Positions 128-42,665 of a DNA stretch of 42,665 nucleotides are shown piece after piece. The notes beneath the pieces were generated by a model that saw only the letters and a program-made list of their open reading frames with translations, searched no databases and was not told the DNA's origin. The DNA comes from a virus, in IMG/VR virus record IMGVR_UViG_3300042341_000346, positions 1 through 42,665 of that record, one strand, 5' to 3'. Made by a program: the position numbers and the translations under genes. Numbering within the stretch: the stretch's first letter is position 1; every line of letters starts with the position of its first letter.

Positions 128-353
128 CGTTATTCGGGCGTACCGAAGCGGCTCGCATAGCCATATTGTCTACGGCTTCAGCAATAAGTGCTGGTGTTAG
201 GGGTGGAAGATTTGGTTCTTTGTCAATATCGGGCATAGGAAGAATCCAGTCGCCGTCATAACGATCAAGAATATCCTTCATACGGTTAAGTACAGGACCT
301 TGCATTGTTTGCAAGTCCTTTACTATGCGTGTTATTTCATCGAATGATCTCAA
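1..353 (-). CDS. portal protein, N-terminal part (continues at 42538)
   Basis: This is the 5' end of the portal gene whose bulk lies at 41044-42538. Reading the minus strand leftward from 353 and across the circle junction gives one open frame of 615 residues, 82 more than the part visible at the right end alone. The start is a TTG at 351-353 that overlaps the terminase stop codon (TTGA). An AGGAG ribosome binding site sits about 8 nt upstream, inside the terminase 3' end. The added N-terminus begins LRSFDEITRIVKDLQTMQ and includes DILDRYDGDWILP. The portal is the dodecameric ring through which DNA is packaged and ejected. The family call rests on position directly after terminase, length, and recognisable portal-like sequence. 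Confidence 0.8.
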   Translation of the reverse strand, partial: MRSFDEITRIVKDLQTMQGPVLNRMKDILDRYDGDWILPMPDIDKEPNLPPLTPALIAEAVDNMAMRAASVRPNNVFPAIDPMKDSGRRSREYADKRRKIVAATYSNSKWNLGRRRY

Positions 354-16506: not shown

Positions 16507-16850
16507 GGTTATTTGATCGCAAGAATGAAGAATGGCGTTTAGATGCTATGTGCCGAGGGATGGATGTTAATCTATTTTTCCCTGAGCAAGGTGTTGATGT
16601 TAGACAAATCCATGCAATCAAAGAGATCTGTGAATCATGTTCAGTCAAAGTAGAGTGTCTAGAGTCAGCACTCAACACAGAAATGGACTTATATGGATTC
16701 TACGGTGGAAAATCTGCTCGTCAACGCAGGACAATTAGGTCTCAAAGAGAATGGGATAGTAATCCCATTAGAGCAACCAGCACCATATATGACGATGAAT
16801 CAGAGGAAACATTGGACATGGAATGCCAAGACGAAGAGAGCTTGGCGTGA
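16503..16850 (+). CDS. whiB: WhiB-family Fe-S transcription factor
   Basis: The 115-residue protein has the four WhiB cysteines: Cys17 (DAMCRGMD) and Cys43, Cys46 and Cys52 (ICESCSVKVECLESA), in the C-x2-C-x5-C spacing. These are followed by the turn YGFYGGKSARQRR, a variant of the G(V/I)WGG motif plus basic DNA-binding tail. WhiB proteins bind a 4Fe-4S cluster and the host sigma factor and are restricted to actinobacteria and their phages. It probably redirects host RNA polymerase, for example to late promoters. ATG 16503 overlaps the preceding stop. The last 53 codons overlap the RusA frame. Confidence 0.93.
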   Translation: MRLFDRKNEEWRLDAMCRGMDVNLFFPEQGVDVRQIHAIKEICESCSVKVECLESALNTEMDLYGFYGGKSARQRRTIRSQREWDSNPIRATSTIYDDESEETLDMECQDEESLA

Positions 16851-25189: not shown

Positions 25190-26356
25190 TCAGACCAAGG
25201 TTCCTGCGGTGGGGAACGTTGCGGCGGTATTCAGAGCACTGAACTTGGCCATATGGTCTTGTCCCTTGACCTGGAATCCACATTCTCCAACCATCATGTA
25301 TGAATCCGTGTCGTTGGTCTTAGCCAACTTCTGAGCCACGAGAGGCTGGAATACACGCTGGATGAAGTTGTCACGGCTGTAACAGAATGCGTCGGTCTTA
25401 CGGACGTAACGGTTACGGACCAAGGTGACTTCACCAAATTCGGTCATGACGGTCTGTGCACGACGACGACCACGGCGAGCATCTTCAACCGTTACGGTCT
25501 GGACACGCTCGTTACCAACGGTGTTGTTCAATGCGCGGAATGCAGCAGGACGGGCGGTAATGAAGTCAAACATACCACCGTTGTCGTATGCAGTCTGCTG
25601 AAGGGCTTCGATTGCACCAACGGTAATCCAAGACGATGACGAGTCAACGTTGCTGGTAATGAACGAGTTCAAACCACCAGTTGAGCGGACACGAGTTGCC
25701 GTATCTTCGTACTTAATACCGTACAAAGCAGCCTGTTCAATGCCGACATTGCAGTGAAGCATTGCGTTACGCATCTGCTTGTTCAATTCGTTCGGCACAC
25801 CATACTTCGGGATGCTCTGCTCGGTACGTGACACGGTGAGCTTCTTGGAGAAGATCTGCGTGTAGTTGGAGTACTTGTCACGGCCCTGGAAGTTAGCCGA
25901 TCCAATGTCACCTTCTGGCAGTACGGTTCCAAGACCGATAATTTCTGCACCTGAAGTGTGGCTGGCTGCGGTTGAACCAAGAGCACCACGAGTAACAGTC
26001 AAGACTTCAGTTGAAGTATCAAGTGCAGTTACCTTAAAGATTTCGTCGTCAATGCGGATGGCGTCGCCAACAGCAAACTTGACTGCATCGCCTGCAACAA
26101 CAGTAACGTCAGTTTCGCTGCTATCAAGTGCTTCGTTAAGGACGCCACGGGGCAACGGTACATCTTCTTCCATCCAGTAGAAAACAGTGTTGTCAACTGG
26201 AGCCTTGCCGATTACACCAAGACCATCTGAACCGATGCCTGAAAGCAACGGAAGATCTTCTGGGGTAAGAATGTAGATCAATTCATCAATATTGATCTTA
26301 GTTTCGACCTGGAGGTCATATGAATAAAAGTTTGGGCCAACAAGTTCTTGTGCCAT
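25190..26356 (-). CDS. major capsid protein
   Basis: The 388-residue protein resembles the SU10-like/DUF5309 HK97-fold capsid family: KINIDELIYILTPEDLPLLS, VFYWMEEDVPLP, QIFSKKLTVSRTEQ, MRNAMLHCNVGIEQAALYG, DFITARPAAFRALNN and VTLVRNRYVRKTDAF. Residues 76-144 are an inserted beta module with VLTVTRGALGSTAASHTSG. It follows the scaffold gene and has AAAGGA before the ATG. The base composition of this gene is the most balanced in the window, as expected for a highly expressed gene. Confidence 0.9.
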   Translation of the reverse strand: MAQELVGPNFYSYDLQVETKINIDELIYILTPEDLPLLSGIGSDGLGVIGKAPVDNTVFYWMEEDVPLPRGVLNEALDSSETDVTVVAGDAVKFAVGDAIRIDDEIFKVTALDTSTEVLTVTRGALGSTAASHTSGAEIIGLGTVLPEGDIGSANFQGRDKYSNYTQIFSKKLTVSRTEQSIPKYGVPNELNKQMRNAMLHCNVGIEQAALYGIKYEDTATRVRSTGGLNSFITSNVDSSSSWITVGAIEALQQTAYDNGGMFDFITARPAAFRALNNTVGNERVQTVTVEDARRGRRRAQTVMTEFGEVTLVRNRYVRKTDAFCYSRDNFIQRVFQPLVAQKLAKTNDTDSYMMVGECGFQVKGQDHMAKFSALNTAATFPTAGTLV

Positions 26357-28060: not shown

Positions 28061-28324
28061 TTACTTCTTTCCACGGTTACGTGCCCGATTGCTCGATGCA
28101 CTTTCTTTGACTAACTTACCATTTTTAGTATGTGACAAATCAGCACCCCCCTTGCCCATCATACCCTTAGCACGACGAGCTTTAGCAAGTTCCCTACGCT
28201 TAGCCATCTGCTCCGCTTTAGCATTAAAAGTAGTATCAGTTTTAGCTTTAACTTTACGAGCATCAGGGTTTGCCTGATAAAACCTGGCAGTTTTACGAGG
28301 ATTAGCAACAGGTTTAGGAGCCAT
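28061..28324 (-). CDS. 87-aa basic virion-type protein
   Basis: It is rich in Lys, Arg and Ala (NPRKTARFYQANPDARKVKA, AEQMAKRRELAKARRAKG). It ends with DLSHTKNGKLVKESASSNRA, a pattern common in short basic proteins of environmental phages. It is coupled to the 289-aa gene by TGATG. It is one of four consecutive basic genes. Confidence 0.75.
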   Translation of the reverse strand: MAPKPVANPRKTARFYQANPDARKVKAKTDTTFNAKAEQMAKRRELAKARRAKGMMGKGGADLSHTKNGKLVKESASSNRARNRGKK

Positions 28325-29193
28325 CAGCGTTGTGCCCCTAACCCTGAAGTACCAGAAGTAGACACAAAAGCCCCACCAGTAGTGTCACGTTGCCTTAACT
28401 GACGACCCATTAAACGATCCTCAAGTTGCTGAGCAGCATCCGCATCACCCAACGCGCCGGCTTTAAAAGCAGCATCAGAAGTCATACCACTAGCAGACTC
28501 ACCAAGCGTACTGGCTTCCAAAGACTGCAAACTAGCAACCTTAGCCGCATCACTAGCCGCATAAGAAACATCTTTATTCAAAGACGCATACTCTTCGGCC
28601 TGCTGGCGACTAACCGTCAAATTCTGTCTCCTACCAAACCCACCAAAAGCAGCCGATTTAGCAGACTTTTCAAGAACCGCATTAGCTTTAGTTGGGTCAA
28701 GAATAGCCATAAGCAAACCTTGCTCACCAGCCATTTCACCATAATATTCATTAAAAACATCTTTTACTTCTTGAGGCAATGTTTTAATAACATTATAAGA
28801 ATTATTAATACGTTCAGTAATCTGATCTATATTCAAATTAGTGGCAATAGCTTTATGTGCATCATCGTAACTATCATAAAACGATGCTGGCACACCATAC
28901 TGTGCCATAGTCCGAGCATAATTAACCTCATACTCTCGGACACTCTCTACTGTTGGAATATCAACTACTTCGCCAGCGTTAGCACGAGCACGCATATCAA
29001 AAATAATTTTGTATCGGTTGCGGAATGTTTCGTTACTTTCTAAAGCAATTTGCAATTCTGCCGAAGATTCAACACCATTAACCATTTGCTCATACAAAAA
29101 TCCTCCAGGATTGCCGTTTGAGTCCACAGTAAACAATTCGCTTAAACCCAACGAACTTAAATATGACGCTAAAGTTGCAAATGTTTCAGCCAT
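28324..29193 (-). CDS. 289-aa presumed internal virion protein
   Basis: The protein is largely helical (FATLASYLSSLGLSELFTVD, NYARTMAQYGVPASFYDSYD, QITERINNSYNVIKTLPQEV) with an Ala/Ser-rich C-terminal third and a disordered tail (STSGTSGLGAQR). No transmembrane helix is seen. It follows the two larger proteins of the giant-protein group in the same operon, which suggests a DNA-ejection or core protein. The family is not recognised from sequence. Confidence 0.65.
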   Translation of the reverse strand: MAETFATLASYLSSLGLSELFTVDSNGNPGGFLYEQMVNGVESSAELQIALESNETFRNRYKIIFDMRARANAGEVVDIPTVESVREYEVNYARTMAQYGVPASFYDSYDDAHKAIATNLNIDQITERINNSYNVIKTLPQEVKDVFNEYYGEMAGEQGLLMAILDPTKANAVLEKSAKSAAFGGFGRRQNLTVSRQQAEEYASLNKDVSYAASDAAKVASLQSLEASTLGESASGMTSDAAFKAGALGDADAAQQLEDRLMGRQLRQRDTTGGAFVSTSGTSGLGAQR

Positions 29194-30275
29194 TAGAATG
29201 AACTCTTTCCAAATATTTGAGCAATAGTTGTTGCCATTGATGAACCCAATTGTTTAGCCTGTTTAGTTTGACCCCACCGAGAATCTTTTCGAACATTCTT
29301 TTGAACCTCGGATTGCGTAGCCAAACGAGTCCCAAGTTTTTCATCTTGCACAGTCATCATTTTAAGATACTGGTCATTAGTAATATCAATATCGCCAGCG
29401 TTCAATTCTAAACCTTGAGCAATAGCGTCACGCGAAGGCGTAAGAACATCCTCAGGCGTAAGCCCTTGATCTAAATATTGTGCAATCCACGGCATAGAAC
29501 TACGAGCCTGGGCAGCCAAAATGCTACCAATACTACTAGTATCTAATTCACCAGATGCTATACGTTTAGCATAATCTTGCGCAGTAGTATCACTCAAATT
29601 CATCAAATACTTTTTGCCCATAGATTTAATCTCATCACGACTAGCAGTTAATGTTCCTTGTTCTACTTTAGTCCAATCAATTTGATTTACAATCATATCC
29701 GTTAATTGATCTTCAGTAAAATCAAGTTTTTCTGCAACCGTAGCCATATAAGCAATTTCGTCAGTACTTAATTTAACACCTAGTTTTGCACTCTCGTTTT
29801 GAAGTCGTGCAGCTAAAGAATTAATTGTGTTGCGTCGTTGTTCTGCCGAACCACCACCACCACCACCACCAGTAATAGACGATAAAGGAATATTATGTTT
29901 ACTTGCCAACTTTAAAAGAGTACCGTCACCTAAAGTGCCATCCATTAGTGCATTAGTATAATCAGCAAGATATCCTGGATGATTTTTCATTCTTGGATAA
30001 TCACGAACTGCTTGTTGTTCTATTGTAAAATATATTCTTGGTTTAGTTATAATATTTCCGTAAACATCTTTTTGAGTAACATCTGTCATCACAAACGCAT
30101 TTAATGCTGCATCTTCAGAAAAAGCATTAACACCAGCCGGAAGTCCTTTAGTAACTGAAGATAAAGCTTCAGCAATAGGATCTGGATTTTGTTGATTTGA
30201 TGTAGTGGAAGGCGTAGGCGTAGGCGTAGGAGTAGGCGGGCGTGGTATCGGTTCTTGAATTTTACGTGTGGCCAT
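29193..30275 (-). CDS. 360-aa presumed internal virion protein
   Basis: ATG 30273-30275 has GGAG upstream (the frame opens at 30287). The N-terminus is a Pro-Thr repeat (PTPTPTPTPS) and residues about 137-144 are a poly-Gly run, both flexible linkers. The C-terminal two thirds are helical (SLAARLQNESAKLGVKLSTD, YLDQGLTPEDVLTPSRDAIA). It overlaps the next gene by one base. The operon places it with the giant protein, so it is probably ejected or core-associated. Confidence 0.65.
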   Translation of the reverse strand: MATRKIQEPIPRPPTPTPTPTPSTTSNQQNPDPIAEALSSVTKGLPAGVNAFSEDAALNAFVMTDVTQKDVYGNIITKPRIYFTIEQQAVRDYPRMKNHPGYLADYTNALMDGTLGDGTLLKLASKHNIPLSSITGGGGGGGSAEQRRNTINSLAARLQNESAKLGVKLSTDEIAYMATVAEKLDFTEDQLTDMIVNQIDWTKVEQGTLTASRDEIKSMGKKYLMNLSDTTAQDYAKRIASGELDTSSIGSILAAQARSSMPWIAQYLDQGLTPEDVLTPSRDAIAQGLELNAGDIDITNDQYLKMMTVQDEKLGTRLATQSEVQKNVRKDSRWGQTKQAKQLGSSMATTIAQIFGKSSF

Positions 30276-30277
30276 GA

Positions 30278-31747
30278 TTAACTCCAATATCTTGCTGTAG
30301 CTGCACGGCTATTAGCATAGTTTGTCCAAACATATTCTTCTTGATATGTGTCCTGCAAATATTTTTCTATATTAGCGTTCATATCAAATTGCATTTGCTC
30401 ATCAGCAAAATTGCCTTGAGTAACTGTCTTTTTTTCCCATCCTCTAACAACATCTTGTAATTGTTGAATTTCTTCAGGATTTAAACCACGACCTAAAATA
30501 GATGAACCTAACTGGTTTGCTTGAGATTCAATAGTTAAGGGATCGCTACCAATAACTTGTTGATCCCATTGAAGTTGACCAACACTTTTAATTCTAGAAT
30601 TCAAAAATTGAAGAGGTTCTTGTCCTGCTAATGCCGCAGATGAAAGAAAATATTGCCAAGCGTTACGAGTCAAAGGATCAATTACACCAGCAATTGGTAA
30701 TTGTCCATCTCCATAATTAAAAAACCCTGCTTTTCGAAGATCATCTTGTAACTCTTTAATGTCACTATATTTTGTTAATGTTCTAGGGAAATTATAAAGT
30801 TTTACTGGGTCCCACTTTTCATCAACTGTTGTTGGTTTGTAACCATATTGGCTAGCAAATTGTCCTGCTCCAGCAACTGGTTGTAATTTGTATGCGGAAT
30901 CTAGCATTAAAGTATAATAATTTCTTTCAGGATTTTCAAAAAGATATTGTTGTCGAGCCAATTCAGGATCTACACCTGTTTGAGTTTGACTTACTGAACC
31001 TTCATTATTTGGAGCAAGAACAGTTACTCCATTTCCAGTCATAGGAGGAACGGCAGTTTGTCCTAAAGTGTCTACATATCCTGGTGATCCCGGTGTTGTA
31101 GTAGTAACAGGTGGTAAAGAAGATTCAGTGTCCACGGTTGGTGTTAAAGGAACTTCACCTGATTGTGCTGCGGCATATATTTTGTCAGTAACACTTTGAA
31201 AATATTGACCAACATATGTTTCAGAATTATTATCATTGCTATAATTGGTTATTCCACTAATATTTAAATTTAATGGTTCTTGTCCCCAAATTTGATTATA
31301 TAAAGTATTATTTTGTTCAATAATTAATCGATCTGCGCTTGCCGCTTTACCCAATGCTTCAACTTCAATTTCAATAAGTTTTTGTTGATATTTTTCATAT
31401 GCTGGAACAACATATTTTTTAACATTATCAGAAACTTTAATACCAGAATTTTCTGCAGTATTTAAAAATTGATTCCAGTTAACAGTTTGAGCAGTCCAAG
31501 GAGTGCGTAATTCTTTTGGAATTAATTCAATAACTTTTTCAAAATCATCAAACTCAAGTCCTGGTGCCGAAGTACTTGTACGACCACTACCTACCTTTCC
31601 GCCTTCCTGAATACCAAAAGTAGCACGAATTAAGTTAAAAAAATCTTTGTTACTTAATTGTTTTGAAGCATCCTCATTAGTAACAAATTTTGAAGTCTCG
31701 CTAATAAGACCAACAAAATCTTCTAAAGGAATAATTGGATCAGCCAT
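30278..31747 (-). CDS. 489-aa virion protein with peptidoglycan-binding-like segment
   Basis: It is coupled to the giant gene by TGATG. The first 170 residues are helical. A Pro/Thr/Gly-rich linker follows (about 200-250). A segment at about 324-368 (DIKELQDDLRKAGFFNYGDG, then IDPLTRNAWQYFL) fits the peptidoglycan-binding type 1 pattern: VK.LQ..L...G followed by T..A...F. The last part is helical. A wall-binding element in an ejected protein would help DNA cross the cell wall. The domain call needs a profile search. Confidence 0.65.
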   Translation of the reverse strand: MADPIIPLEDFVGLISETSKFVTNEDASKQLSNKDFFNLIRATFGIQEGGKVGSGRTSTSAPGLEFDDFEKVIELIPKELRTPWTAQTVNWNQFLNTAENSGIKVSDNVKKYVVPAYEKYQQKLIEIEVEALGKAASADRLIIEQNNTLYNQIWGQEPLNLNISGITNYSNDNNSETYVGQYFQSVTDKIYAAAQSGEVPLTPTVDTESSLPPVTTTTPGSPGYVDTLGQTAVPPMTGNGVTVLAPNNEGSVSQTQTGVDPELARQQYLFENPERNYYTLMLDSAYKLQPVAGAGQFASQYGYKPTTVDEKWDPVKLYNFPRTLTKYSDIKELQDDLRKAGFFNYGDGQLPIAGVIDPLTRNAWQYFLSSAALAGQEPLQFLNSRIKSVGQLQWDQQVIGSDPLTIESQANQLGSSILGRGLNPEEIQQLQDVVRGWEKKTVTQGNFADEQMQFDMNANIEKYLQDTYQEEYVWTNYANSRAATARYWS

Positions 31748-34700
31748 CAGTCAAGCCCCGATTCTGGTTTAAGAATACCCAACCAAAACGATTTTAGTTG
31801 AGGATATTTAGTAAGGAAATCTTCTTCAACCCAAGTTTGCCAATTGAAACGTTCTGCAGCAACAGCACTACGGCCAGAAGAAGTTTTATTTAAAGATAGT
31901 TCACCAACAGTATTCATATAACGATTCCAACCATCAACCAAAATTACCATAGAATCAGAATAATCTGTTCTAGGGAACTCTGGATCTTTGAGCATAATTT
32001 GAATTTCACCAATAATATTTCTACGCTCGCCAGCACGAGTATTACTAGTTAAAATTTCAGCAAACTTTGGGTGAGAAGCTTTCCATCCCTTATCAAAACG
32101 CTCCCACTTTTCACGCCAAAGATCAGCCGAAGCCTGATCACCGCTTTGTTCTGCCACAAGAGCTTTTTCTTCATAATCATTCTTTACAGAAAAATAACGA
32201 GTAGCGCCTTCTTTGAACATAAACTCATCAAGCATTTCCTGAGGCGTACTACGATAACGCAAACCTTCAACAACACTCTGATTCCAAGCCCACTGAGAAA
32301 AATCATCAGCAGTTTCCGGATCATTCGGAATCATCCAAGGACTACCAAGTTTATATTCACCAAAAATATTTTTGTTATCCAAATAATATTGGATAGCAGC
32401 CTTAGTACTTGGAATAACAGCACCAGAAGGAGTTTCATTTACACTAGTTGTATACATCATTGGGTTGAAAAGATCTTGGACACCAAATCGTTTTCCTTGA
32501 TCAATATATGTATTGATGTAACGAACAGTCCCTTCATCAATACCATAAAGACGAATACTGTCATAGTATTCTGCCTTTAATAAATCTCCTGCATTTTCAA
32601 TAGCCCCGCCAGTTAACCATTTAATTGAGTTATCCTCGCCTTGATTAATTTCAACACCAGGAGGCCCCATTGTTACCCATCCACTAAGCAGACGAGTGAC
32701 TTCCATAATGCGTGCATAGTTTGTTACGTCACGCATAACTTCTTCCATTTCTGCGGCAGTCATATCCGGCTTAGGACCTTTACCTTGAGCCATATAATGT
32801 GCCATAGCCATGTTAAAATAACTGCCTAGTTTTTCGTCTTTACGCAATTCGTCCTGGCTAGAACTCATTAACTTTACTGCTTTAACAGTATTGACCATTG
32901 AAGCAGGCAAGAAGTGATCCCACCAGTTTCGATCCAACTTATTGTCCTCACCAACAATATTTCGTTCTAAAGCTTGCAATGGTTCGAAGTCAGAAAATAT
33001 TCCAGAAAGAAAACTAACTGGCCAAATAACAAGAGGCGAATATGACGGAGCACCAAACTTGGGACCAAAACCTGGCAATATTTTATTTGTTGATTGCGTA
33101 ATCATTCCTGTCAAACCAAGATCCAAACCAGTAATACTAGATAGACCGTCAATCATAAGATCGGTTCCAGGAATTACAAAATAGTCATCGCCGTTTGGTT
33201 GTTCACGAATAACACCCATTTCACGCAAACCAGTATATTTCAACTGGAATTGACGCAATGTGGCTAAACCGTTAGCACCACTGTCTAAAGCAATAATTCG
33301 TGACCATCGTTTAATAAAGTTTTCTTCTGCATAGAAAAAAGGCATAAAGCCACGACCCCAATCAGCAAATTGTGATCGTATTTCGTTGCTGTCAATGTAT
33401 GGCATAACGTCACGAATTGTTCGTTCTTGTGCATAGTAGCGAGCATTCTCTAATGCTTTTTCACGGGTGTTCCATGCATTTTGTAGAGTAGCAAAATCTT
33501 CGTCATATAATTCATCTAACAGTTTTTGTACTTTAGCTTTACTTGTTCCTTCAACACCAATGGTTTCAATTTGTTGAAGTCGTTGACGAACCGCCCATTC
33601 AGCGCCACCAGATTTAATAACATCCTCGCCCAATTGAGCGGTCATGTAATCTAAGAAATCCCATGAACCACCAATTTCTCGGTCACCAGTAACAACATTG
33701 CCTTTATTTTTAGTAGCAAAAGTAACCAACGCATTAGTTTTGTCATCAACAGGATTATTTTTTAGAATAGTAAGTGCAGTATCAAAATCTTCATCAACAA
33801 AACTACGGATGTAAGAAATTGCTTCCCCATTAGACCAATATTCTGCTTCAGGAACACCATGCGACAGACCTACTTGACGACCAACATCTGACCATCTTTC
33901 AAGAGTCTGAGGTGATTGCGGACCAAAAATGTTTTTAGCATGAAACGCATCCGCTAAATTATTTAAAGAAAGTTCTTCTGGCGTACCATAAAGCATCCAA
34001 TCAATATTTTTGAGGTTCTGCTCCATAGCAATACTGTAAGCATGAAACGCCATAGGCTTACGAGAAATAGCATCCATAATCGGTGCAAGCACTCTATTAA
34101 AACCAAACTGAACAGCCTTATCAAATTGCGCCATAGCACCAGTTGAAACATCTTCTAATACAGAAGCTATTTCCATATTAGGCAAATTGCCAACAGAACT
34201 ATTTTGAACATCATGAAGATTAAATCGAGTCACAGGAATATGATCTAAATAAACTTCTTTGTCCATCCCACTTAATTTTGTACTTTGCGTACCTTCAAAA
34301 AGTTTACGTCCAGAAAGTTTTTCTGCCTGATCATAAAGAAGAGGCGCAATAATATTCCAGTTAATATCAGTTTCACCCTTATATTCAATTGCTGTTTCTT
34401 CCATATACCGCATGTCACCAAGATCAACAAGATCTTCTTCACCCATACGAGCATCTTTATAAATACCACGCGCAGGAATAATATCGCCCTGCTTCAAAGC
34501 CATAGGACGACCTTCATTTAAAATCCACAACGTGTCATCTTCTCGCACAACATAATCCATCCGTCGTCCGGATTTAGTGCGTTGTCTAATAGTTTCAATA
34601 GCCGCATCAATAATTTGTTTTTGCGAACCCTGCGTTGCAGCATCATACAAATATTCGGAAACAATAGGATAGTTATCTACTGGCCAACCAATAACATCAA

Positions 34701-37700
34701 AAGCTTCTTCGGGCATATTGCCAACAAACTCTGGAAATTCTTCTTGTATTCCAGCTTTTGATTTCATTGAAAACATTTTACGAGCAGCGGGTATTTGACT
34801 ATTTTCTGTAGCAAATCCAAATATTTGATTTAGTTGAACAATTTCATTAGGTTCTTTAACTGGCAAATACATTGATTTAACTTCAGGAATAAAATGTGTT
34901 TGTTCTAAATTTCGTGCAACGTTACCTCTAGGTTTATACGGAGTCATTTTTTCTAGTAAAGCATTCATTTTATTTAAATAAAATTCTGCTGATTCACGTG
35001 TTGAAAAAACCAATGGTGTGCGCGTATCAATAGCAGAAACAACTAATTCTTCCATGCTTAATGGAGATCTAGTTGTATTTACACCATCATCCCACCTATC
35101 ACCCTTTTGCCATGTGCGAGTAGATGTCCAACTATCGCCCAAAGTATATGACGGAGGAACATCTGGCAATTCACCAGAAGTTTGCCTAGCAATATACGGT
35201 GGGAGATTTGATGTATCTAAAACAAAAACTTCTTGCGTAGGACCAGTATCAACCACACGACGATTCAACCTAAGAACATCATCAAACTCGCCACTCTCAA
35301 TTATGCGAGCCATTTCCATTTCTAGTGCTGGCTGAATTTCATCAAACGAAGAATAAAAAGGGCTAGTAGAATAATCAGCAAAAATTTCACCTGGCTTAAT
35401 TCGACCAGATTGAATTAAATTATGTTGATTTAATTGTTCAAGACAAATATTTAACGAGTATTGTTGATCTTCAGTCAAAGCATTATATCTATCATGAAAA
35501 TTAATTGTTTCCGGATCTTGTCCGTTTAATATTGCGTTCTCTTCTCCAATTGCATAAATTTCATCTTTACGTGCTGTGTAATATTTAAATTCGTCATCAG
35601 TTAAAAGATGCGCAATTCTTGAACTTTCAGGTCCCAACGGATCATTTGTATTATTTAAATAACCTTTTGTTTTACGCAAAGAATCTAATTTTTTGTACTC
35701 ATCTACAAGCGGATTAAAAGTATTTTTAAAACTTTCTAGAAGCTCTGGCATTGACCATTCAAGATGAAGACTTTGACCTGCTTCATCTATTAAACCTTTT
35801 ATAAAATCTTCTGGACTAATTTCAACTTTAATAACATTTCCAGAACCAGACAAAGATGGCTGCACGGCAGGATAATTGGGATCTTCTAAATAACTTACTC
35901 TTATTTTTGATGGATCATCTATTAACTCGTGGAAAATATTAGGAAGAACAACAATTTGAGTGTCAGAATCAAAAAAATCAGCAGTAGTGCTTTCTACATT
36001 AGGAAAAACAAATTCTAATTGTAATTCGGTAAAAGGATCTTCTGTAACGTTTAAATCAATAATTTTGTTATCTACAGAATTTACTGCCCATCTCGGCCCA
36101 AAGTTTTCAAAATATGTATTTAAATCATCAATCAAATTAGGTTGAGAAAAAATTTCTTTAGTTTTTGTTTCTGTTACACCAAGTGTAGTTATGGTCAACT
36201 CGTCAAGAACGGTCTGATCAATGTCATCATAAATAGAACCGTCAGGAACATGTAACGAATAAGTACCAGCAGGATACGTAATTGAATTTGATGTTGGTGC
36301 GGCAATAACTGGATTTAATGGATCTATTCCCCAAGCCTCAAGTTGTTTATTTACATCATTAAGATTATCTATTCTTATTTCTTGCATGGAAATATTACCT
36401 TGAAGTGTTGTTTCTTGAGAAGCCGTAATTGGTCCATTTTGCTTAAGTCCATTAAAGAAATCTATATTTTGTTGATGACTTTCTATTTGACTTTTTAATA
36501 AACTTTGACTATCAACTGCTCTTTTTTGCATTAAATAATCTTCTGATTTTTCAGCATGTATAGCTAACTCACGATGGCCAATACGCCCCGCTTCTCTAAA
36601 ATTTGGGCTTTCAAGAATATAAGGTGCTTCAGGCCCTTGAGTAAAAGTTGCGCCTCTTCCTTCAACACGATAAGGCAAAGGTGCAGTTCCATTAGCAAGG
36701 TCACCAAAAGTACGGTAACCAATATTTTCTCTTGTAATACCATGAGCAGCAAAAGTATCATCAACCGTAGTTGTAAACATTACAGGACGAGTTCTAACAT
36801 TGCCAGTGTAAAATATACCTGTCGCATAGCGCAATGATTGTTCATGCGATAAACTGAATGACAAAGCATCATTAGAAGTACCCCATTGACTTTGTTCTTG
36901 AAAAAATAATGTTATAGAACCATCAGAATTAAGAACATACTGATCACCAGGACGTTGCATCATACGATACAAAGGTTGACCCTTACTACGACCAACCGAC
37001 TGGCCGTTCCATCGCATAACTTCAGGACCCCAATGTTGACCGTCAGTAGCCCAGTCTTGGAATATGTTTGCCATAACCCATGACTTTGCTGGTTCTTCAA
37101 TATCACCAACTAAACGCTGAAGATTATTTATTGCACCCGCACCAACTTTATCGGCATCACTTTGCAACAAAATTGTTGTGAACTCTTCAGGAGTAGGAAC
37201 ACGCAAACCACCATAATTGTTTTTAAGAACATCATATAAAACGCCATCTTTATGCTGGTTTAACGCAGCAACAAAACGTTGTACTCGCGCAGGATGCTCA
37301 AGCGGTTCGTTAACAACCAACCACAAGTGAAGTACTGAAGCATCAAGTGCACCTAACCCATCATCGGCAGAATCTAAATAGTTTTTCCAGGCATAAATAA
37401 TTTCTTGATACTTTTGTGGTGGAACTAATTCTTGGGTATCAGGAGTAAAAACATTAAGTTCTTTTTGAATAACAGGAGAAATTAAAGCATCATCAGTAAG
37501 TTCACTAGTTCGCTCATGAACGGACACATGAAAATCTTCTCTAAGTCTATGATTTTCTCCTTGACGGACGATACCCATTTCACCGGTACTTAAACGAACA
37601 TTAATTTTTTCGCCAAGTTCACGTTCTACGGCACTAGTCCTGGCTGTTAATTCTAAAGGAATACCTGAACCCGTACCTAGACGGTCCATCAAAGCATCAA

Positions 37701-40608
37701 AAGCATCAGTAGTAAAATATCGTGCCCTGTCAACTAAAGATTTATTAACTCCGCCAACAAGCATACGGCGAAGTGAATATTCGTTACCAAAAATCATCAT
37801 GTCAGCCATAGACTTAACATTGTTTTTAATAATAGATGGACTTAAAGATAAATTTTCTGCGAGTGTTTTAGAAGTAAGTTCGTCAGTTGCTCCACGCAAA
37901 AGCTTCATTATGTCTACAAGTTTACTCTCTTGCCTATTTGCTCCACGCAAAAATGTTGTTAACCATTTACCGTAGTTTTTACCAACAACAAAAAAAGGAT
38001 TGTGGCCTGCACCTAAACGAGTAACAACTCGTGCAAGAGGTCGAATGTGAGCAGGGATATCATAATCTTTTAGAAGAATCCATTTTTGGCGTTCAGTTAA
38101 TTTTCGAGTGCGATTTGCATTAACACCAGCAGTATTAAACTCACCAACAATTACTTTAGCTTCTTTATATGCATCATAGTTACCAATATTTCGTGCACCA
38201 AATTCTTGTAACCAAAAACCTGAACCTGCACGGGCAATTAACGCCAATAAATCTTCGCCAGAGTTACGGAATGCAAAACCAAATCTAAACAAAACTGACG
38301 GCTTCCAAATTTTTTCTTGGAATCCTTTAATGTATTGATTCTCAGGAATGCCTAACAACACTCTAAAATAACTTCCGTCGGCTGCTGCTTTACGCAACAA
38401 TTTCATATCTGGTAAAGCAATCATAATTGCTTGATTATGAAGAATCGGAAGTGCACCCACTTTATCCATTTTCATTAAACCGTTTTTGGTAGACATAGTT
38501 CCAGCCTTACCAAACGCATAATGTTGTTTAAAGTGAGTAAGGATTGAATCTAATTGTTCTGCAGCTTCCGGAAATTGTCGTAAGTTTCCTGCTGTTGCCA
38601 GCGAGTCAACCATGGATGCAATAGCGTCAATGCGACCCTGAAAGTTTGGATTATCAATAATTGTTTTAATCCAAAGATCTTGCATGTATGAAGATAAACC
38701 TATTTTTTGGAAACTTCGAACAAACTGTGTAATATCTTCAACCGCTTGTGGCTGATCCATAATAGTAACAACTTGTTTTGTTAATGCTGGTGTAACTAGA
38801 GCTTCTTTAAAAGCACCAAATGGTTGCAGTAACCTTCCTACAATTGGTGTTTGTGCAAGTTCTAAACCAGTTTTATAGAAAGAGTTTTGTGTAAGAGCAA
38901 GAAAATCTTCTCGCATGGCTTCAGGTAAAAAAGATAAAAGTTCATCCATAAAATTAGCGTTGCCACTAATTTTTTCAATAATACGATAAACACTTGCATC
39001 ACCAGCACCACGTAAGAAATCTCCAAGAGCACCAGTAGCAGTTTTTAATGCGTAAGTTGTTGGTCCTAATGTTTTTAATGTTTGACGAGTAACGCCTTGG
39101 GTAATACCAATGCCTTGCATAATGGCACCAAATCTTTGGCCATCAGAAATGTAATCAACTATGTTTCTTCCAGTAAATTCAGTAAAATCTGCTGTGCCTT
39201 TAACACCATTATAATAAGTGCGTAAATTGTCGTATAGGGGCATCCATTGTTTTGCGTATTTTTGAATAATTCGGACATCGCCATTAACAACACCTTTAGC
39301 GACTTGATCAAAAACACGTTTTACGCTGTCATGTTTTTCGTACATTTGAATAAACCTATTTGCCATAACGGCACCATCAGCAAACTCCATACCATAACGT
39401 GAAAGTTTAAAAGCTCTAGTTCCTGCAGCAATTAAGTTAAATGGATCTACGCCGACCATGTATGCGGCATCTACAAAACCTGATAAAAATTGATATTCGC
39501 CACTATTAGGATTTAACCCTAAACCGCGTGCGGCTACACGTCCAAGACTAATTTTTCCTTGTTGCATAGTAACAACAGCTTCTTGAAAAATTGGTTGTTG
39601 AATAATTGTTTCAAGAGCCGCAACAGTTTCAAAATATGCTGGAGTGTTTGGTTCAACAATTTCTCCGGCGAGTTCCTGAATAATATCAAATTGTTTTTCT
39701 GGATTTAACGCTTCACGGTTGCCAGAAATTTCTGTTACTAAAGAAACTAAATCGGTTTGATTACCAAGTTTGCTTGCTAAGGTTTGAGCCAAAGATGTTA
39801 AAGCTTCATCGCCTAATAATTCTCTAGCCCTATTTTGTGCTTCAATAGTAAAAAGTTTTTCTCCATCGCCCGCACGAAGGTAAGCATTATAAAATCTTGA
39901 TGGATTACCTTGAATGGTTTCTGTCAAAAAAGCGGCAGTGCTTGCACCAACAACTGCAGCAGTACCAGCAACAGCAAGAAGTGCTAGCGGGTTGGCTACA
40001 CCTAAAGTGGCTGCTCCAACATAACCAGCGTATCCTCCTCCTACTGCACCGAATGCTGAAGCAACTTTGCTAGCAGTACTAAGTTGAGCAATGGTTCTGA
40101 CTGGACGTTGATAAATTTGGTCTTGAGTAAAAATAAAACCTTTTAGTAATCCTGCACCTGCAGGAATAGCCACATCACTAATTGACCATCGAAAAGGTGC
40201 GGTTGCAGTACTTAAGGGACCGTCATACCAACTTTTTGTTGATCCATTAGATGATGGAACCTTATAACCCATTTTGGTTAAAGTGTCTTGTTGCTGTGGC
40301 GTTAAGGTTGAATAAATAGCACGTTGCGTAGAGGGCATTTTGTTGCGCAAATCGTCAGCAAGGGTAGAAGCACGATACATGCCATAAGCCTGACCAGTAT
40401 TATACAAAAGAGTATTTGTATCCATGTTTGATGCGGCCATAGCCATAACAGTTTCAGGTTCGCTGGCTAACCAAGGATTCATGCGATACATGGCTTGGGT
40501 ACGGAATGCTTGTACTGAACTATCTACATATACTTGAAGATTTGCTTCTGCTTCAAGAAGATTATTTTCAATATCATCAACATCTTCTTGTGTGTATGCA
40601 ACTGACAT
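31747..40608 (-). CDS. 2,953-aa giant virion protein (internal/ejection, polyvalent type)
   Basis: One uninterrupted frame occupies 8.9 kb, a fifth of the genome. Both ends are coupled by overlaps (TAATG and TGATG). The N-terminus is helical. Residues about 180-228 are a Gly/Ala-rich hydrophobic stretch (VGGGYAGYVGAATLGVANPL) able to insert in a membrane. Residues about 1205-1355 resemble an ADP-ribosyltransferase. The C-terminal 700 residues are mostly helical with further Gly-rich hydrophobic parts (LDLGLTGMITQSTNKILPGF). Its place after portal and its size recall giant ejection proteins (N4 vRNAP, P1 DarB, T7 core). No RNA polymerase or helicase motif was found. Confidence 0.75.
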   Translation of the reverse strand: MSVAYTQEDVDDIENNLLEAEANLQVYVDSSVQAFRTQAMYRMNPWLASEPETVMAMAASNMDTNTLLYNTGQAYGMYRASTLADDLRNKMPSTQRAIYSTLTPQQQDTLTKMGYKVPSSNGSTKSWYDGPLSTATAPFRWSISDVAIPAGAGLLKGFIFTQDQIYQRPVRTIAQLSTASKVASAFGAVGGGYAGYVGAATLGVANPLALLAVAGTAAVVGASTAAFLTETIQGNPSRFYNAYLRAGDGEKLFTIEAQNRARELLGDEALTSLAQTLASKLGNQTDLVSLVTEISGNREALNPEKQFDIIQELAGEIVEPNTPAYFETVAALETIIQQPIFQEAVVTMQQGKISLGRVAARGLGLNPNSGEYQFLSGFVDAAYMVGVDPFNLIAAGTRAFKLSRYGMEFADGAVMANRFIQMYEKHDSVKRVFDQVAKGVVNGDVRIIQKYAKQWMPLYDNLRTYYNGVKGTADFTEFTGRNIVDYISDGQRFGAIMQGIGITQGVTRQTLKTLGPTTYALKTATGALGDFLRGAGDASVYRIIEKISGNANFMDELLSFLPEAMREDFLALTQNSFYKTGLELAQTPIVGRLLQPFGAFKEALVTPALTKQVVTIMDQPQAVEDITQFVRSFQKIGLSSYMQDLWIKTIIDNPNFQGRIDAIASMVDSLATAGNLRQFPEAAEQLDSILTHFKQHYAFGKAGTMSTKNGLMKMDKVGALPILHNQAIMIALPDMKLLRKAAADGSYFRVLLGIPENQYIKGFQEKIWKPSVLFRFGFAFRNSGEDLLALIARAGSGFWLQEFGARNIGNYDAYKEAKVIVGEFNTAGVNANRTRKLTERQKWILLKDYDIPAHIRPLARVVTRLGAGHNPFFVVGKNYGKWLTTFLRGANRQESKLVDIMKLLRGATDELTSKTLAENLSLSPSIIKNNVKSMADMMIFGNEYSLRRMLVGGVNKSLVDRARYFTTDAFDALMDRLGTGSGIPLELTARTSAVERELGEKINVRLSTGEMGIVRQGENHRLREDFHVSVHERTSELTDDALISPVIQKELNVFTPDTQELVPPQKYQEIIYAWKNYLDSADDGLGALDASVLHLWLVVNEPLEHPARVQRFVAALNQHKDGVLYDVLKNNYGGLRVPTPEEFTTILLQSDADKVGAGAINNLQRLVGDIEEPAKSWVMANIFQDWATDGQHWGPEVMRWNGQSVGRSKGQPLYRMMQRPGDQYVLNSDGSITLFFQEQSQWGTSNDALSFSLSHEQSLRYATGIFYTGNVRTRPVMFTTTVDDTFAAHGITRENIGYRTFGDLANGTAPLPYRVEGRGATFTQGPEAPYILESPNFREAGRIGHRELAIHAEKSEDYLMQKRAVDSQSLLKSQIESHQQNIDFFNGLKQNGPITASQETTLQGNISMQEIRIDNLNDVNKQLEAWGIDPLNPVIAAPTSNSITYPAGTYSLHVPDGSIYDDIDQTVLDELTITTLGVTETKTKEIFSQPNLIDDLNTYFENFGPRWAVNSVDNKIIDLNVTEDPFTELQLEFVFPNVESTTADFFDSDTQIVVLPNIFHELIDDPSKIRVSYLEDPNYPAVQPSLSGSGNVIKVEISPEDFIKGLIDEAGQSLHLEWSMPELLESFKNTFNPLVDEYKKLDSLRKTKGYLNNTNDPLGPESSRIAHLLTDDEFKYYTARKDEIYAIGEENAILNGQDPETINFHDRYNALTEDQQYSLNICLEQLNQHNLIQSGRIKPGEIFADYSTSPFYSSFDEIQPALEMEMARIIESGEFDDVLRLNRRVVDTGPTQEVFVLDTSNLPPYIARQTSGELPDVPPSYTLGDSWTSTRTWQKGDRWDDGVNTTRSPLSMEELVVSAIDTRTPLVFSTRESAEFYLNKMNALLEKMTPYKPRGNVARNLEQTHFIPEVKSMYLPVKEPNEIVQLNQIFGFATENSQIPAARKMFSMKSKAGIQEEFPEFVGNMPEEAFDVIGWPVDNYPIVSEYLYDAATQGSQKQIIDAAIETIRQRTKSGRRMDYVVREDDTLWILNEGRPMALKQGDIIPARGIYKDARMGEEDLVDLGDMRYMEETAIEYKGETDINWNIIAPLLYDQAEKLSGRKLFEGTQSTKLSGMDKEVYLDHIPVTRFNLHDVQNSSVGNLPNMEIASVLEDVSTGAMAQFDKAVQFGFNRVLAPIMDAISRKPMAFHAYSIAMEQNLKNIDWMLYGTPEELSLNNLADAFHAKNIFGPQSPQTLERWSDVGRQVGLSHGVPEAEYWSNGEAISYIRSFVDEDFDTALTILKNNPVDDKTNALVTFATKNKGNVVTGDREIGGSWDFLDYMTAQLGEDVIKSGGAEWAVRQRLQQIETIGVEGTSKAKVQKLLDELYDEDFATLQNAWNTREKALENARYYAQERTIRDVMPYIDSNEIRSQFADWGRGFMPFFYAEENFIKRWSRIIALDSGANGLATLRQFQLKYTGLREMGVIREQPNGDDYFVIPGTDLMIDGLSSITGLDLGLTGMITQSTNKILPGFGPKFGAPSYSPLVIWPVSFLSGIFSDFEPLQALERNIVGEDNKLDRNWWDHFLPASMVNTVKAVKLMSSSQDELRKDEKLGSYFNMAMAHYMAQGKGPKPDMTAAEMEEVMRDVTNYARIMEVTRLLSGWVTMGPPGVEINQGEDNSIKWLTGGAIENAGDLLKAEYYDSIRLYGIDEGTVRYINTYIDQGKRFGVQDLFNPMMYTTSVNETPSGAVIPSTKAAIQYYLDNKNIFGEYKLGSPWMIPNDPETADDFSQWAWNQSVVEGLRYRSTPQEMLDEFMFKEGATRYFSVKNDYEEKALVAEQSGDQASADLWREKWERFDKGWKASHPKFAEILTSNTRAGERRNIIGEIQIMLKDPEFPRTDYSDSMVILVDGWNRYMNTVGELSLNKTSSGRSAVAAERFNWQTWVEEDFLTKYPQLKSFWLGILKPESGLD
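36544..36996 (-). other. ADP-ribosyltransferase-like segment of the giant protein
   Basis: In order, the segment has Arg1215 in PLYRMMQRPGDQY, Ser1250-Phe-Ser1252 in ALSFSLSHEQSLRYATG and Glu1347 in GHRELAIHAEK. This matches the R...S-x-S...E order of ART enzymes. The second Glu of a usual ExE is not at the expected place, so activity is uncertain. ART domains are common in polyvalent phage proteins. Confidence 0.35.
39925..40071 (-). other. hydrophobic Gly/Ala segment of the giant protein
   Basis: Residues about 180-228 contain roughly 45 small hydrophobic residues with few charges, enough for two membrane passes. In ejected proteins such regions form the channel in the host membrane. Confidence 0.55.
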
Positions 40609-41051
40609 TAAAGACCAGCCTTCATAGCTAACTCAGAAAAAATAGGGTTGCCTGTTTGTCGTGATAATTGACGCATAAATTCGCCTTGCTTATAAGAAGG
40701 AGATGAAGCATATGCATTCATTGAAGGCGAAGGTCCGTTGCGTAAACCCGCATTAAAAGGAACGCTTGGTTGATCGTCGGGTTGATACAACTGTCCACCA
40801 ACATTACTCAACATACCTTTCATGTCATCTAAAGACATTTTAGGTTGTTCTTGCACGGGGGCACTAGGAGCAGGAGCACCTTCCTGTTGAGGACTTGGCG
40901 CTGTTGGTTGAGATTGAGGGTTTACCAATTGAGGTGCAGGCATCGTCTGTTGCAACTGTTCCTGTTGCACACCCTCACCATATGTCTGTCCACTAATAGA
41001 TTGAACTGGCTGGCCTTGACCACCAGCCAAAGTTTTCTTTGCTCTAGGCAC
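40608..41051 (-). CDS. 147-aa Pro/Gln-rich protein between portal and giant gene
   Basis: A GTG start is used with a perfect AAGGAGG site inside the portal 3' end, overlapping the portal stop. The middle is Pro/Gln/Ala-rich and probably disordered (MPAPQLVNPQSQPTAPSPQQ). The ends are helical (LSLDDMKGMLSNVG-like and FMRQLSRQTGNPIFSELAMK). Its place suggests a portal-associated linker, protease-less scaffold or chaperone for the giant protein. The portal C-terminus is similarly Pro/Gln/Ala-rich. Confidence 0.65.
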   Translation of the reverse strand: MPRAKKTLAGGQGQPVQSISGQTYGEGVQQEQLQQTMPAPQLVNPQSQPTAPSPQQEGAPAPSAPVQEQPKMSLDDMKGMLSNVGGQLYQPDDQPSVPFNAGLRNGPSPSMNAYASSPSYKQGEFMRQLSRQTGNPIFSELAMKAGL

Positions 41052-42665
41052 CTTGTCCTCCTTGCATAGCCGCTAACAACTGTTGAACATTCGCACGAGG
41101 ATCTTGAGGGGGTCCAGCCTGTGGAGGTGGAGCCTGAGCCTGAGCCTGTTGCATAGCCATCATCTGCTCTGGAGGTCCAGCCATACCAGGCATAGCCTCA
41201 GGTGGAGCAACCATTCCTTCGGGAGCTGGCGGTGCTTCTGACGCTTGACGCTTACGCATTTCATCATCAGCCATAGCAACAGCATCAAAAATATCTTTGC
41301 CTTCCGACAAATACTTCTTAATCATCGTAGAAGCAATTAACGGCAACTCGCCAGTCAAAAGCTTTTGAAGAACACTTTGACGCAAGGCATCATCAAAGTC
41401 CTCGTCCTGCACAAGACGTTCTTCAGCCTCATGGTCATCAATGTACGGGTGCATAGCCCTGAAGGTGCGACCCGAAATGGCTTTAGCACCACGCAAAGAC
41501 CCAAGGATCTGTGTCTGTTGCATAACATCAGCACCAGGAAGGTTATACGAAACTGTGTTATCTAACAGTTCTATGTGTTCCTGCGGCGTAAATGTGACAA
41601 TACCTTTGTCTCCAGCCCATCCAGAGTACATTGAATACTTCTTGTCAGGCCAATACGCTTTATAGGTAGAAAGAATTGCTGAGTTAAGATGTGGTAGCCA
41701 CGCTTCACTGATTTCGTGAAGTTCTTGGATGCGCGGATCAACAGCCATACCGGCCATAGCGTCCATACCACGACCAGTACGCAAAGCACCGTAAGTCTCA
41801 CCACCAAATTGTGGAACCAAGCCCGTTGAGGTGCGGAAGTTGCGTTCAAGACGGTCAATGGTTTGCGTGGTCCTAATGTCTGGCGTGGATCGAATCTGAC
41901 CGATGGACTCAACGTCCTGTAGCAAGTTGATTTCACCTTCACGACCATCTTTCCATTGTCCACCAATAATACGAGGCATTCCACCCGAACGCCCAATAGC
42001 GTACATGTCAGGCCAAATAGCTTTTTCTTGGGCAAGAATGTCTAGTGCCATAAGTCTTGCTTGTAGGTCTACGTTGCCAAGCATTGATCCAATACGGCTT
42101 GCGATGCGTCCGAGGCTCACGTTGTGGGGTACTACGGCTGGCATCATGCCGATACGGTTCGGATAACTTGGTGATAACTGTTGCCATGGGGTAATCCATG
42201 GGCGTTCGCTTGACATGCGACGGTCATCAAATACTGGTCCGATGATGCCGAATACGGTTTGATCTAGGTCGTACCATTCAACACATTCCCAAAGGTCACG
42301 GTAGTCGTCTTTGTGGATTGGTCCGCCTACTTCTTGGCGTGATTGTGGATAGACACGACGTAAGAATTCGGCTGAGTGGCGGGTAACAAAGGCTACATAT
42401 TCGGGTTGCCGTAGTTCTTCGTTGGCTGTTGGCTCAATATAGGTGCCGAGTGGGTCACGGATCTCAATGCGGGGAATGCCTGCATTAAAGTCTGGGATAA
42501 CGACAAGACTGCAAGTGTGGTAGGCGGCTAGTTGGCGGTAGTAGCGACGACGACCGAGGTTCCATTTAGAATTTGAGTAGGTTGCTGCTACGATCTTGCG
42601 TCGTTTGTCAGCATATTCACGGGACCTGCGACCGCTATCTTTCATGGGGTCAATGGCAGGAAACA
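41044..42665 (-). CDS. portal protein, main part (5' end lies at 1-353)
   Basis: Together with 1-353 this encodes a 615-residue portal. The visible part reads KDSGRRSREYADKRRKIVAA at the junction, then a beta-rich clip and wing (VVIPDFNAGIPRIEIRDPLG, YVAFVTRHSAEFLRRVYP), a helical core (IRTTQTIDRLERNFRTSTGL) and a C-terminal Pro/Gln/Ala-rich tail (PPPQAGPPQDPRANVQQLLA). The ring connects capsid to adaptor and binds terminase. Codon third positions shift at about 41560, with the C-terminal third using T/G-ending codons and the rest A/C-ending ones. No fused protease or ADP-ribosylating domain is seen. Confidence 0.85.
   Translation of the reverse strand, partial: FPAIDPMKDSGRRSREYADKRRKIVAATYSNSKWNLGRRRYYRQLAAYHTCSLVVIPDFNAGIPRIEIRDPLGTYIEPTANEELRQPEYVAFVTRHSAEFLRRVYPQSRQEVGGPIHKDDYRDLWECVEWYDLDQTVFGIIGPVFDDRRMSSERPWITPWQQLSPSYPNRIGMMPAVVPHNVSLGRIASRIGSMLGNVDLQARLMALDILAQEKAIWPDMYAIGRSGGMPRIIGGQWKDGREGEINLLQDVESIGQIRSTPDIRTTQTIDRLERNFRTSTGLVPQFGGETYGALRTGRGMDAMAGMAVDPRIQELHEISEAWLPHLNSAILSTYKAYWPDKKYSMYSGWAGDKGIVTFTPQEHIELLDNTVSYNLPGADVMQQTQILGSLRGAKAISGRTFRAMHPYIDDHEAEERLVQDEDFDDALRQSVLQKLLTGELPLIASTMIKKYLSEGKDIFDAVAMADDEMRKRQASEAPPAPEGMVAPPEAMPGMAGPPEQMMAMQQAQAQAPPPQAGPPQDPRANVQQLLAAMQGGQGA
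42539..42665. repeat. terminal overlap, right copy
   Basis: Identical to 1-127; see the left copy. Count it once when deriving genome length or gene coordinates. Confidence 0.95.

Follow-up and report, generated by a model that had tools for sequence, protein, structure and literature searches.

A giant phage protein with conserved ends and a variable middle, encoded beside the portal gene of a probable actinophage

The window studied here, that is, the whole stretch of 42,665 nucleotides of IMG/VR virus record IMGVR_UViG_3300042341_000346, encodes a protein of 2,953 amino acids. Sequence comparison with its relatives shows that this giant has conserved ends and a middle that differs from phage to phage. 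We think it reasonably probable that it is the largest of a set of ejection, or internal virion, proteins, encoded in a cassette with proteins of 147, 489, 364 and 289 aa, in what is probably a short-tailed actinophage. We favour this reading because of the fixed order of portal gene, small gene and giant gene, the conserved ends and variable middle, an ADP-ribosyltransferase-like (ART-like) domain in nine of 26 giants, the divergence of the module relative to its flanks, the island that separates the cultured phages E7 and F5, the insert site of the F5-type giants, and a hydrophobic segment held in place in 20 of the 26. Against it count the lack of detectable homology with N4 gp50, PDB matches that are chance-level or very short, the six giants (E7 among them) and F5 that have no hydrophobic segment at that place, the motifs on which the window's ART rests, and the lack of a direct match between F5-type and window-type giants.

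The giant gene and its genomic setting

The features discussed below are the following, E-values being those of profile matches.

350..2107, minus: terminase large subunit, TerL (phrog_38, E 4.6e-47)
16533..16733, plus: WhiB domain, host marker (PF02467, E 1.2e-18)
25190..26356, minus: major capsid protein, MCP, SU10-type (PF17236, E 3.8e-51)
28061..28324, minus: 87-aa protein, where conservation resumes after the module (94% identity with locus L078)
28324..29193, minus: 289-aa module protein (phrog_8424, E 1.1e-16)
29193..30287, minus: 364-aa module protein (phrog_6654, E 1.3e-15)
30278..31747, minus: 489-aa module protein, its C-terminal part better conserved (homolog comparison)
30659..30766, minus: PG_binding_1-like stretch, residues 328-363 of the 489-aa protein (E 0.012, sub-threshold)
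31747..40608, minus: giant open reading frame, 2,953 aa (single intact translation)
31750..34608, minus: C-terminal putative chassis, residues 2001-2953 of the giant (profile of relatives)
33304..33402, minus: most conserved motif of the family, residues 2403-2435 (invariant columns)
35359..37308, minus: variable middle, or putative cargo bay, residues ~1101-1750 (block alignment of relatives)
36223..36981, minus: ART-like domain, residues 1210-1462, YRMM / SFS / HRELAI (motifs by eye)
37459..40458, minus: N-terminal putative chassis, residues 51-1050 (aligned in all 18 relatives; invariant residues)
39925..40071, minus: Gly/Ala-rich hydrophobic stretch, ~residues 180-228, putative membrane hairpin (hydropathy)
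40608..41051, minus: 147-aa Pro/Gln-rich protein, with which the divergent module begins (49% identity with L078)
41044..42645, minus: portal protein, upstream flank of the module (matches E7 and F5 proteins)

Since an exact 127-bp repeat is found at both ends of the contig, the record can be taken as a complete genome of 42,538 bp. The giant gene, 8,862 bp long, represents 20.8% of it, the "fifth of the genome" of the initial annotation, which was also right about the coordinates and the intact frame; the latter is obtained by translating the minus strand. The order of transcription is TerL, portal, 147 aa, giant, 489, 364, 289, 87, 85, 95, 177 and 96 aa, MCP, 300 and 607 aa: the giant follows the portal group, with the 147-aa gene in between, and the three genes announced after it are those of 489, 364 and 289 aa. 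Genes overlap by one base (TAATG or TGATG) at the junctions 147/giant, giant/489, 364/289 and 289/87, and by ten bases at 489/364, provided that the 364-aa gene does begin at the TTG listed for it. The order portal, small gene, giant is found in every compared locus that holds the start of the giant; locus L001 begins inside the module. The reading frame of the portal may extend beyond its listed start, over the junction of the contig ends; the E7 counterpart of the portal matches the portal family phrog_104 at 1.3e-24. Comparison of giant codons 1-1,242 with those of a close relative gives dN 0.0115 and dS 0.0673, i.e., a pattern indicative of purifying selection on the giant.

The host is very probably an actinobacterium, as had been proposed, because the WhiB domain is present in the window and in seven of the nine records of the group that were searched, and because a cultured relative infects 'Ca. 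Planktophila'.

Some other genes of the window have features of their own. With the 95-aa protein (27365-27652, minus strand; phrog_7595), tblastn finds matches in 47 phage records, many from aquatic phages, and loci L039, L040 and L041 have homologs of the 87- and 95-aa proteins before TerL, not after the module. Residues 69-144 of the MCP and residues 26-95 of the 300-aa protein (24213-25115, minus strand) match the same part of phrog_1101, as if the two proteins had a small domain in common. The 570-aa protein that adjoins TerL (2516-4228, minus strand) has collagen-like Gly-X-X repeats and diverges strongly among relatives. On the plus strand are a ParB-like protein at 12815-14095 (HTH_ParB, 1.1e-16), a recombination-directionality-factor-like protein at 15493-16506 (PF18897, 1.4e-32) and, at 17282-17791, outside the late cluster, a protein with a lipoprotein-like start, judged by eye, and an SLT transglycosylase match (PF01464, 5.6e-5).

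A family of giants with conserved ends

We compared 26 giants, window included, with lengths of 1,764 to 3,058 aa; the relatives come from IMG/VR loci (L-numbers), one MAG contig and one cultured phage, E7. In reading the counts given below, it should be kept in mind that L063 equals L064 in every figure shown, that L065 is close to both, that L074, L086 and L087 are truncated at their C-terminal ends, and that L068 is without a clear start. Starts were assigned mechanically, in most cases to the earliest ATG, and M was written as the initial residue, so that N-termini are approximate. Alignments were made on subsets: 16 sequences for A1, 24 for A2 and A3, 14 for A4 and nine for A5, and, for F5-type giants, nine for A8 and three for A6.

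A tblastn search with the window giant finds no match among 50,697 phage records, and the same search with two distant family members finds only E7. A second search for relatives, started from L070, returned only three near-identical or known records. When the C-terminal 617 residues were used as query, a match was found in 18 of the 18 records searched, these having been pre-selected for already holding pieces of the giant. A scan of genome contigs yielded one relative, L074 (JAGVUU010000111.1), whose bin is a Gammaproteobacteria MAG; the contig is perhaps a mis-binned phage. We found no open-licence paper whose title or abstract opening describes the giant family or its cargo bay, or says what the E7/F5 island is.

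Every 50-residue block of window residues 51-1050 and 2001-2950 is aligned in all 18 relatives, with the exception of block 2251-2300, aligned in 14 of them. In block 2401-2450, mean identity among relatives reaches 55%. The window giant contains no Pfam family above its cut-off: the best match among 16 giants scanned, HTH_11 at 0.0018, is in the window giant and below its cut-off. The family phrog_10618, of unknown function, is matched by eight of the 16 whole giants (best 9e-7), the window giant not being one of them, and no Pfam or PHROG family of known function matches the conserved ends. The PDB profile search of the N- and C-terminal parts returned alpha-synuclein, at 0.048 or worse and on a Gly-rich stretch, two designed proteins at 6.4e-4 and 1.3e-3, and a 32-residue stretch of RNA polymerase III at 0.022; all are chance-level or very short, and we take them as chance matches. 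The middle part had no match in this search.

The hydrophobic segment

Near the N-terminus, the initial annotation had placed a Gly/Ala segment able to insert into a membrane. If a hydrophobic segment is defined as a window of 19 residues with mean hydropathy of 1.6 or more, residues 196-215 of the giant pass the threshold, and 20 of the 26 giants have such a segment at the aligned window positions 177-210. Five giants have none anywhere (L061, L070, L072, L073, which is E7, and L074), L071 has one elsewhere, and the F5 giant also has none at this place. The count is not remarkable: averages for shuffled copies lie between 1.25 and 3.4 segments per protein, and real counts per giant are no higher. 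What is remarkable is the fixed position, with the reservation that homologs are not independent. The hydrophobic C-terminal third described in the same annotation is not borne out: its GRAVY is -0.448, against -0.104 and -0.488 for the other thirds, and none of the 26 giants has a hydrophobic segment there.

The variable middle and its ART-like domain

Between the conserved ends, 2 to 17 of the 18 relatives are aligned per block of the variable middle, and only 2 to 14 in blocks 1151 to 1750; residues 1751-2000 are of intermediate conservation. The distance between two fixed anchors, window residues 1041 and 2061, ranges from 296 to 1,159 aa across the 26 giants.

R-S-E is the signature of ADP-ribosyltransferases. 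In the window's middle, three motifs can be recognised by eye in this order: Y-R, then S-x-S followed by Q-A..Y, then a segment E-(I/L/F). The domain that holds them is present in nine of the 26 giants (window, L055, L057, L060, L061, L070, L071, L072 and L092), first picked by eye. Leave-one-out models, run against a database of the 26 sequences with filters off, recover all nine domains at the right place, with E-values from 1.2e-10 (L092) to 1.6e-29 (window), the best non-member being at 0.0018. With the joint model, the other 17 giants are at 0.32 or worse, or not listed. A model built from the window, L055 and L057 finds L072 at 4.5e-6 and L061 at 0.067.

The ART-like middle proposed in the initial annotation is thus upheld as a set of motifs and as a domain recurring among relatives, and not at the level of fold. 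The window domain has no Pfam match, PF03496 included, and no PDB sequence match. The proposed recourse to AlphaFold and Foldseek gave no better result: among the AF2 models, which cover the middle of the giant, that of the window's whole middle has a pLDDT of 51, about 30 in the ART-like part, and that of the compact L070 domain a pLDDT of 49; both are poor, and Foldseek finds no match at E 0.001. As this fold evidence failed, "ART-like" should be understood as a motif-level reading of the window's middle.

One may therefore ask whether the domain has another fold, its R, S-x-S and E motifs being due to chance, in which case the reading of the ends as a chassis would still stand. We hold this to be a serious alternative, somewhat short of an even chance. 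Besides the missing Pfam, PDB-sequence and Foldseek matches, it can invoke the failure of hhalign to align the window-family domain with the Pfam-level ART of the F5-type giants described below; the Met that replaces the first Arg in L060 and L071, and the S-F-T that replaces S-x-S in L057; the Glu motif, clear by eye in eight of the nine members and not put in one column by the aligner; and a two-sequence model, L070 with L072, that reaches the window at only E 0.063. What it has to contend with is the order of the motifs and the leave-one-out models, which show a real shared domain. We retain the ART-like reading in what follows.

A module that diverges as a block

Comparison with three loci delimits the module. 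Against L078, identity is 99% for TerL and 97% for the portal; it falls to 49, 33, 32, 40 and 54% for the 147-aa protein, the giant, and the 489-, 364- and 289-aa proteins, and rises again to 94, 96, 91 and 97% for the 87-, 95-, 177- and 96-aa proteins, and to 96, 97 and 96% for the MCP and the 300- and 607-aa proteins. These figures are those of best local matches, taken over 1,064 columns for the giant and 159 for the 489-aa protein, and the 85-aa gene has no match in the comparison. Against L077, the shape is the same: 97% for the portal, 49, 33, 35, 43 and 53% in the module, then 89-98%. Against L003 it is milder: 99% for the portal, 87, 58, 41, 71 and 73% in the module, and 86-97% beyond it up to the 607-aa gene. 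Since the drop is limited to the module in all three cases, the five genes diverge, or recombine, as a block, which is in line with the multi-gene unit next to the portal suggested by the initial annotation.

Two partners of the giant call for comment. The 364-aa protein has no tblastn match among the 50,697 phage records. The 489-aa protein had been credited with a wall-binding-like segment, and this is not confirmed: its PG_binding_1 match, at 0.012, is below the Pfam cut-off, and only the window's matches among the six whole homologs scanned, window included. With segments cut out of the homologs, three of eight match (best 0.0018), and a profile of the eight segments finds no convincing PDB relative; the pattern LQ...G..G..D..T..AW is present in all eight.

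The island of two cultured phages

Phages LanE43-AprE7 (OX376640) and LanE43-AprF5 (OX376641), here E7 and F5, were isolated on the same strain, LanE-43, of 'Ca. Planktophila' (PMC10202952). An 8-kb island is called one of two extremely variable regions in that description, which presents its products as hypothetical proteins without homologs in the other phage (PMC10202952). The common flanks of the two genomes, 96.4 and 97.7% identical, end at E7 position 8372 and resume at 16922. In E7, the gap contains nearly all of a gene for a giant of 1,764 aa and genes for 442 and 530 aa; in F5, it contains a giant gene of 1,711 aa, genes for 364 and 482 aa, and the greater part of a 160-aa gene. The two genomes also differ in other, shorter stretches.

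By sequence, the giant module of the window corresponds to this island. The gene order is the same (PMC10202952), and the E7 giant is assigned to the window family: hmmsearch finds it at 6.3e-47 with a C-terminal model built without E7, and at 7.3e-11 with an N-terminal one. Its middle is shorter than that of the window giant. Two families are common to E7, F5 and the window, phrog_6654 (2.5e-18, 2e-16 and, for the 364-aa protein, 1.3e-15) and phrog_8424 (1.1e-56, 5.6e-11 and, for the 289-aa protein, 1.1e-16); the two small genes of the island are thus divergent counterparts, not unrelated genes.

The link of the F5 giant with the window family is indirect. There is no direct hmmsearch match between F5-type and window-type giants at E 1, and the hhalign probability is at most 31%. 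A direct profile comparison reached E 5e-4, while a reversed control scored 39.4 against 45.0 and 40 column shuffles at most 31.4; in view of the reversed control, we do not claim direct homology. The two types appear to be linked only through a partial bridge, phrog_10618. Residues 964-1220 of the F5 giant match positions 949-1212 of this profile at 3.1e-13. On the window side, N-terminal slices of L056, L058 and L059 match positions 643-710 (8.2e-7 to 6.7e-5) and that of L067 matches at 0.032, which makes four of nine N-terminal slices; one of ten C-terminal slices, that of L063, matches positions 1139-1219 at 0.0013. The profile is matched by F5 and L117, and not by L121 or E7.

A single insert site in F5-type giants

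F5-type giants are carried by 25 IMG/VR loci, whose portals are mostly 92-95% identical to that of E7, and 81-89% over three fragments. In L111 (5974-11128, plus strand), the giant is split between two frames of the contig. Fourteen F5-type giants, F5 included, are complete, and most of their 100-residue blocks are 69-97% identical to F5; the lows are 59% in one block, and 37-38% at the N-terminus of L107 and L127. Six of the 14 are longer by 161-215 residues, inserted at a single position close to F5 residue 820.

L128 stops short of this site, and the census was taken over the 25 giants that hold its left edge (24 loci and F5): the site is empty in 15, holds an ART in five and a GNHR, ParB-like insert in four, and is cut by the contig end in one. 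The ART is identified by profile in L116 (insert, PF03496, 2e-16) and L121 (giant, 1.6e-16, with an additional match to phrog_3895 ART), and by motif in L123, L124 and L125. The L116 insert has a single PDB match, the ADP-ribosyltransferase 1ojq, at 5.9e-4. In these relatives, the enzymatic cargo of the initial annotation thus finds support, as an enzyme domain in a variable middle. The other inserts, two of which are identical (L117 and L118), carry a GNHR motif, as in ParB-type domains, and we call them ParB-like on the strength of this motif and of the match of L117 to phrog_21912, "DNA binding protein", at 7.3e-5. The whole giants L117 and L119 that carry them have no Pfam match, and a PDB search with the inserts gives no ParB match.

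Comparison with known systems

The virion RNA polymerase gp50 of N4 (Schitoviridae), 3,500 aa long, belongs to an ejection cassette, gp50-gp51-gp52 (PMC12633501). As described there, gp50 is built like the window giant, with a membrane-type N-terminal part, a middle enzyme and a large C-terminal part, and is coded with two smaller ejection proteins near capsid genes (PMC12633501). By gene order and overlaps, the window giant is likewise encoded in a cassette with smaller proteins. The likeness stops here: hhalign probabilities between the N- or C-terminal parts of the two proteins are 0.5 and 0.2%, no RNA polymerase family is found in the Pfam scan of 16 giants, so that we rejected a reading as RNA polymerase, and the middle differs between relatives. 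The host of N4, moreover, has another type of envelope. The window giant is laid out like the ejected polymerase of N4, without detectable homology, and is not a member of its family.

Polyvalent proteins of phages and conjugative elements are described as large, with ART and other effector domains, and their injection along with the DNA is predicted (PMC5512222). Such a protein joins at least two disparate biochemical domains in one polypeptide. The window giant, also encoded among packaging and virion genes, may fall under this broader kind; it differs in having one recognisable effector-like domain, by motif only, and a chassis that matches no Pfam or PHROG family of known function. Phage T4 Alt is an ADP-ribosyltransferase packaged in the head and injected, which its description in the same source does not make part of a giant chassis (PMC5512222). 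Finally, ejection proteins of the T7/P22 type are internal proteins that come from a small operon and vary more than the rest of the virion (PMC8954989). The window module, too, is an operon whose clustered genes are more variable than those for the other virion proteins, as seen with L078 and with E7/F5. However, T7/P22-type proteins are much smaller, and the giant gene lies before the MCP gene, the comparison having been made through Pfam, PHROG and PDB.

A possible mechanism, and other readings of the giant

What can be read from the alignments is that the giants form a family, that the cassette diverges as a block, and that middle domains are present in some members and absent from others. 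Assuming that the giant is indeed an ejection protein, the following sequence of events can be conjectured. The giant and its partners would be packed near the portal, and would leave ahead of the DNA or with it. The Gly-rich N-terminal segment would insert into the cytoplasmic membrane, while the smaller partners would help to form a path through the wall, the 489-aa protein, with its sub-threshold match, perhaps binding the wall. The N- and C-terminal parts would serve as a conserved chassis around a cargo bay, and the variable middle domain would reach the host cytoplasm, where it would act on some target, early in infection as an enzyme or against the host's defences. The window's cargo would be the ART-like domain; F5-type giants would bring an ADP-ribosyltransferase, a ParB-like domain or nothing.

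Proteins outside the virion can have ART domains as well, and the location of the giant in the virion is itself something we infer. It could then be an intracellular effector that lies by chance within a structural cluster. We consider this unlikely, in view of the overlapping genes, the fixed place next to the portal, and the divergence of the giant in one block with four small proteins.

MuF genes often lie after the portal gene, and the giant, with its variable domains, lies between portal and MCP: it could be a minor head protein of the MuF kind that bears a polymorphic toxin-like domain. Fusions of MuF domains with various enzymatic domains are described in PMC5512222. The MuF family PF04233 is matched by one of the 16 giants scanned, at 0.19, and none has a significant MuF match; this, together with a variable part that is in the middle and followed by a conserved C-terminal chassis, and with a length of 1,700-3,060 aa, makes the hypothesis quite unlikely.

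That a very long protein of the late region should be the tape measure of a long-tailed phage is highly improbable, since the matches of the giants include no tape-measure family, as the initial annotation had it, since the gene lies before that of the MCP, and since F5-type giants, although the portals of their phages are mostly 92-95% identical to that of E7, differ by one insert of 161-215 aa, which would change the length of the tail. None of the late proteins scanned has a whole-length tape-measure match. A protein of 191 aa (19921-20496, minus strand) matches a domain inside the tape-measure family phrog_16823, positions 919-1064 of 1948; it is too short for a tape measure, and is perhaps a peptidase or lysin.

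Conclusions

We come back to the reading of the giant as an ejection protein, for which relatives supply more of the evidence than the window by itself. Its conserved ends and changing middle suggest, as far as sequences can tell, a machinery for infection that has a place for exchangeable enzymes. More tentatively, in a generalisation that we regard as possible without holding it for established, actinophages of abundant freshwater bacteria would eject a giant chassis that has a bay reserved for cargo; entire cassettes, as well as single cargo domains (ART, ParB-like or unknown), would be swapped between near-identical phages, and the 8-kb island would be an arsenal used at the time of infection. 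If this is true, it would explain the island of the first cultured phages of 'Ca. Nanopelagicales', and E7 and F5, which grow on the same strain and differ largely in the island, would constitute a natural experiment. It would also add, in phages of actinobacteria, a giant ejected protein with the N4 layout and interchangeable cargo. Lastly, the ART genes of freshwater phages, so far explained as a Trojan horse aimed at grazers (PMC6802176), could then be read in another way: among the ADP-ribosyltransferases that have been reported as anti-predator toxins, some may be enzymes carried in the virion for the takeover of the host.
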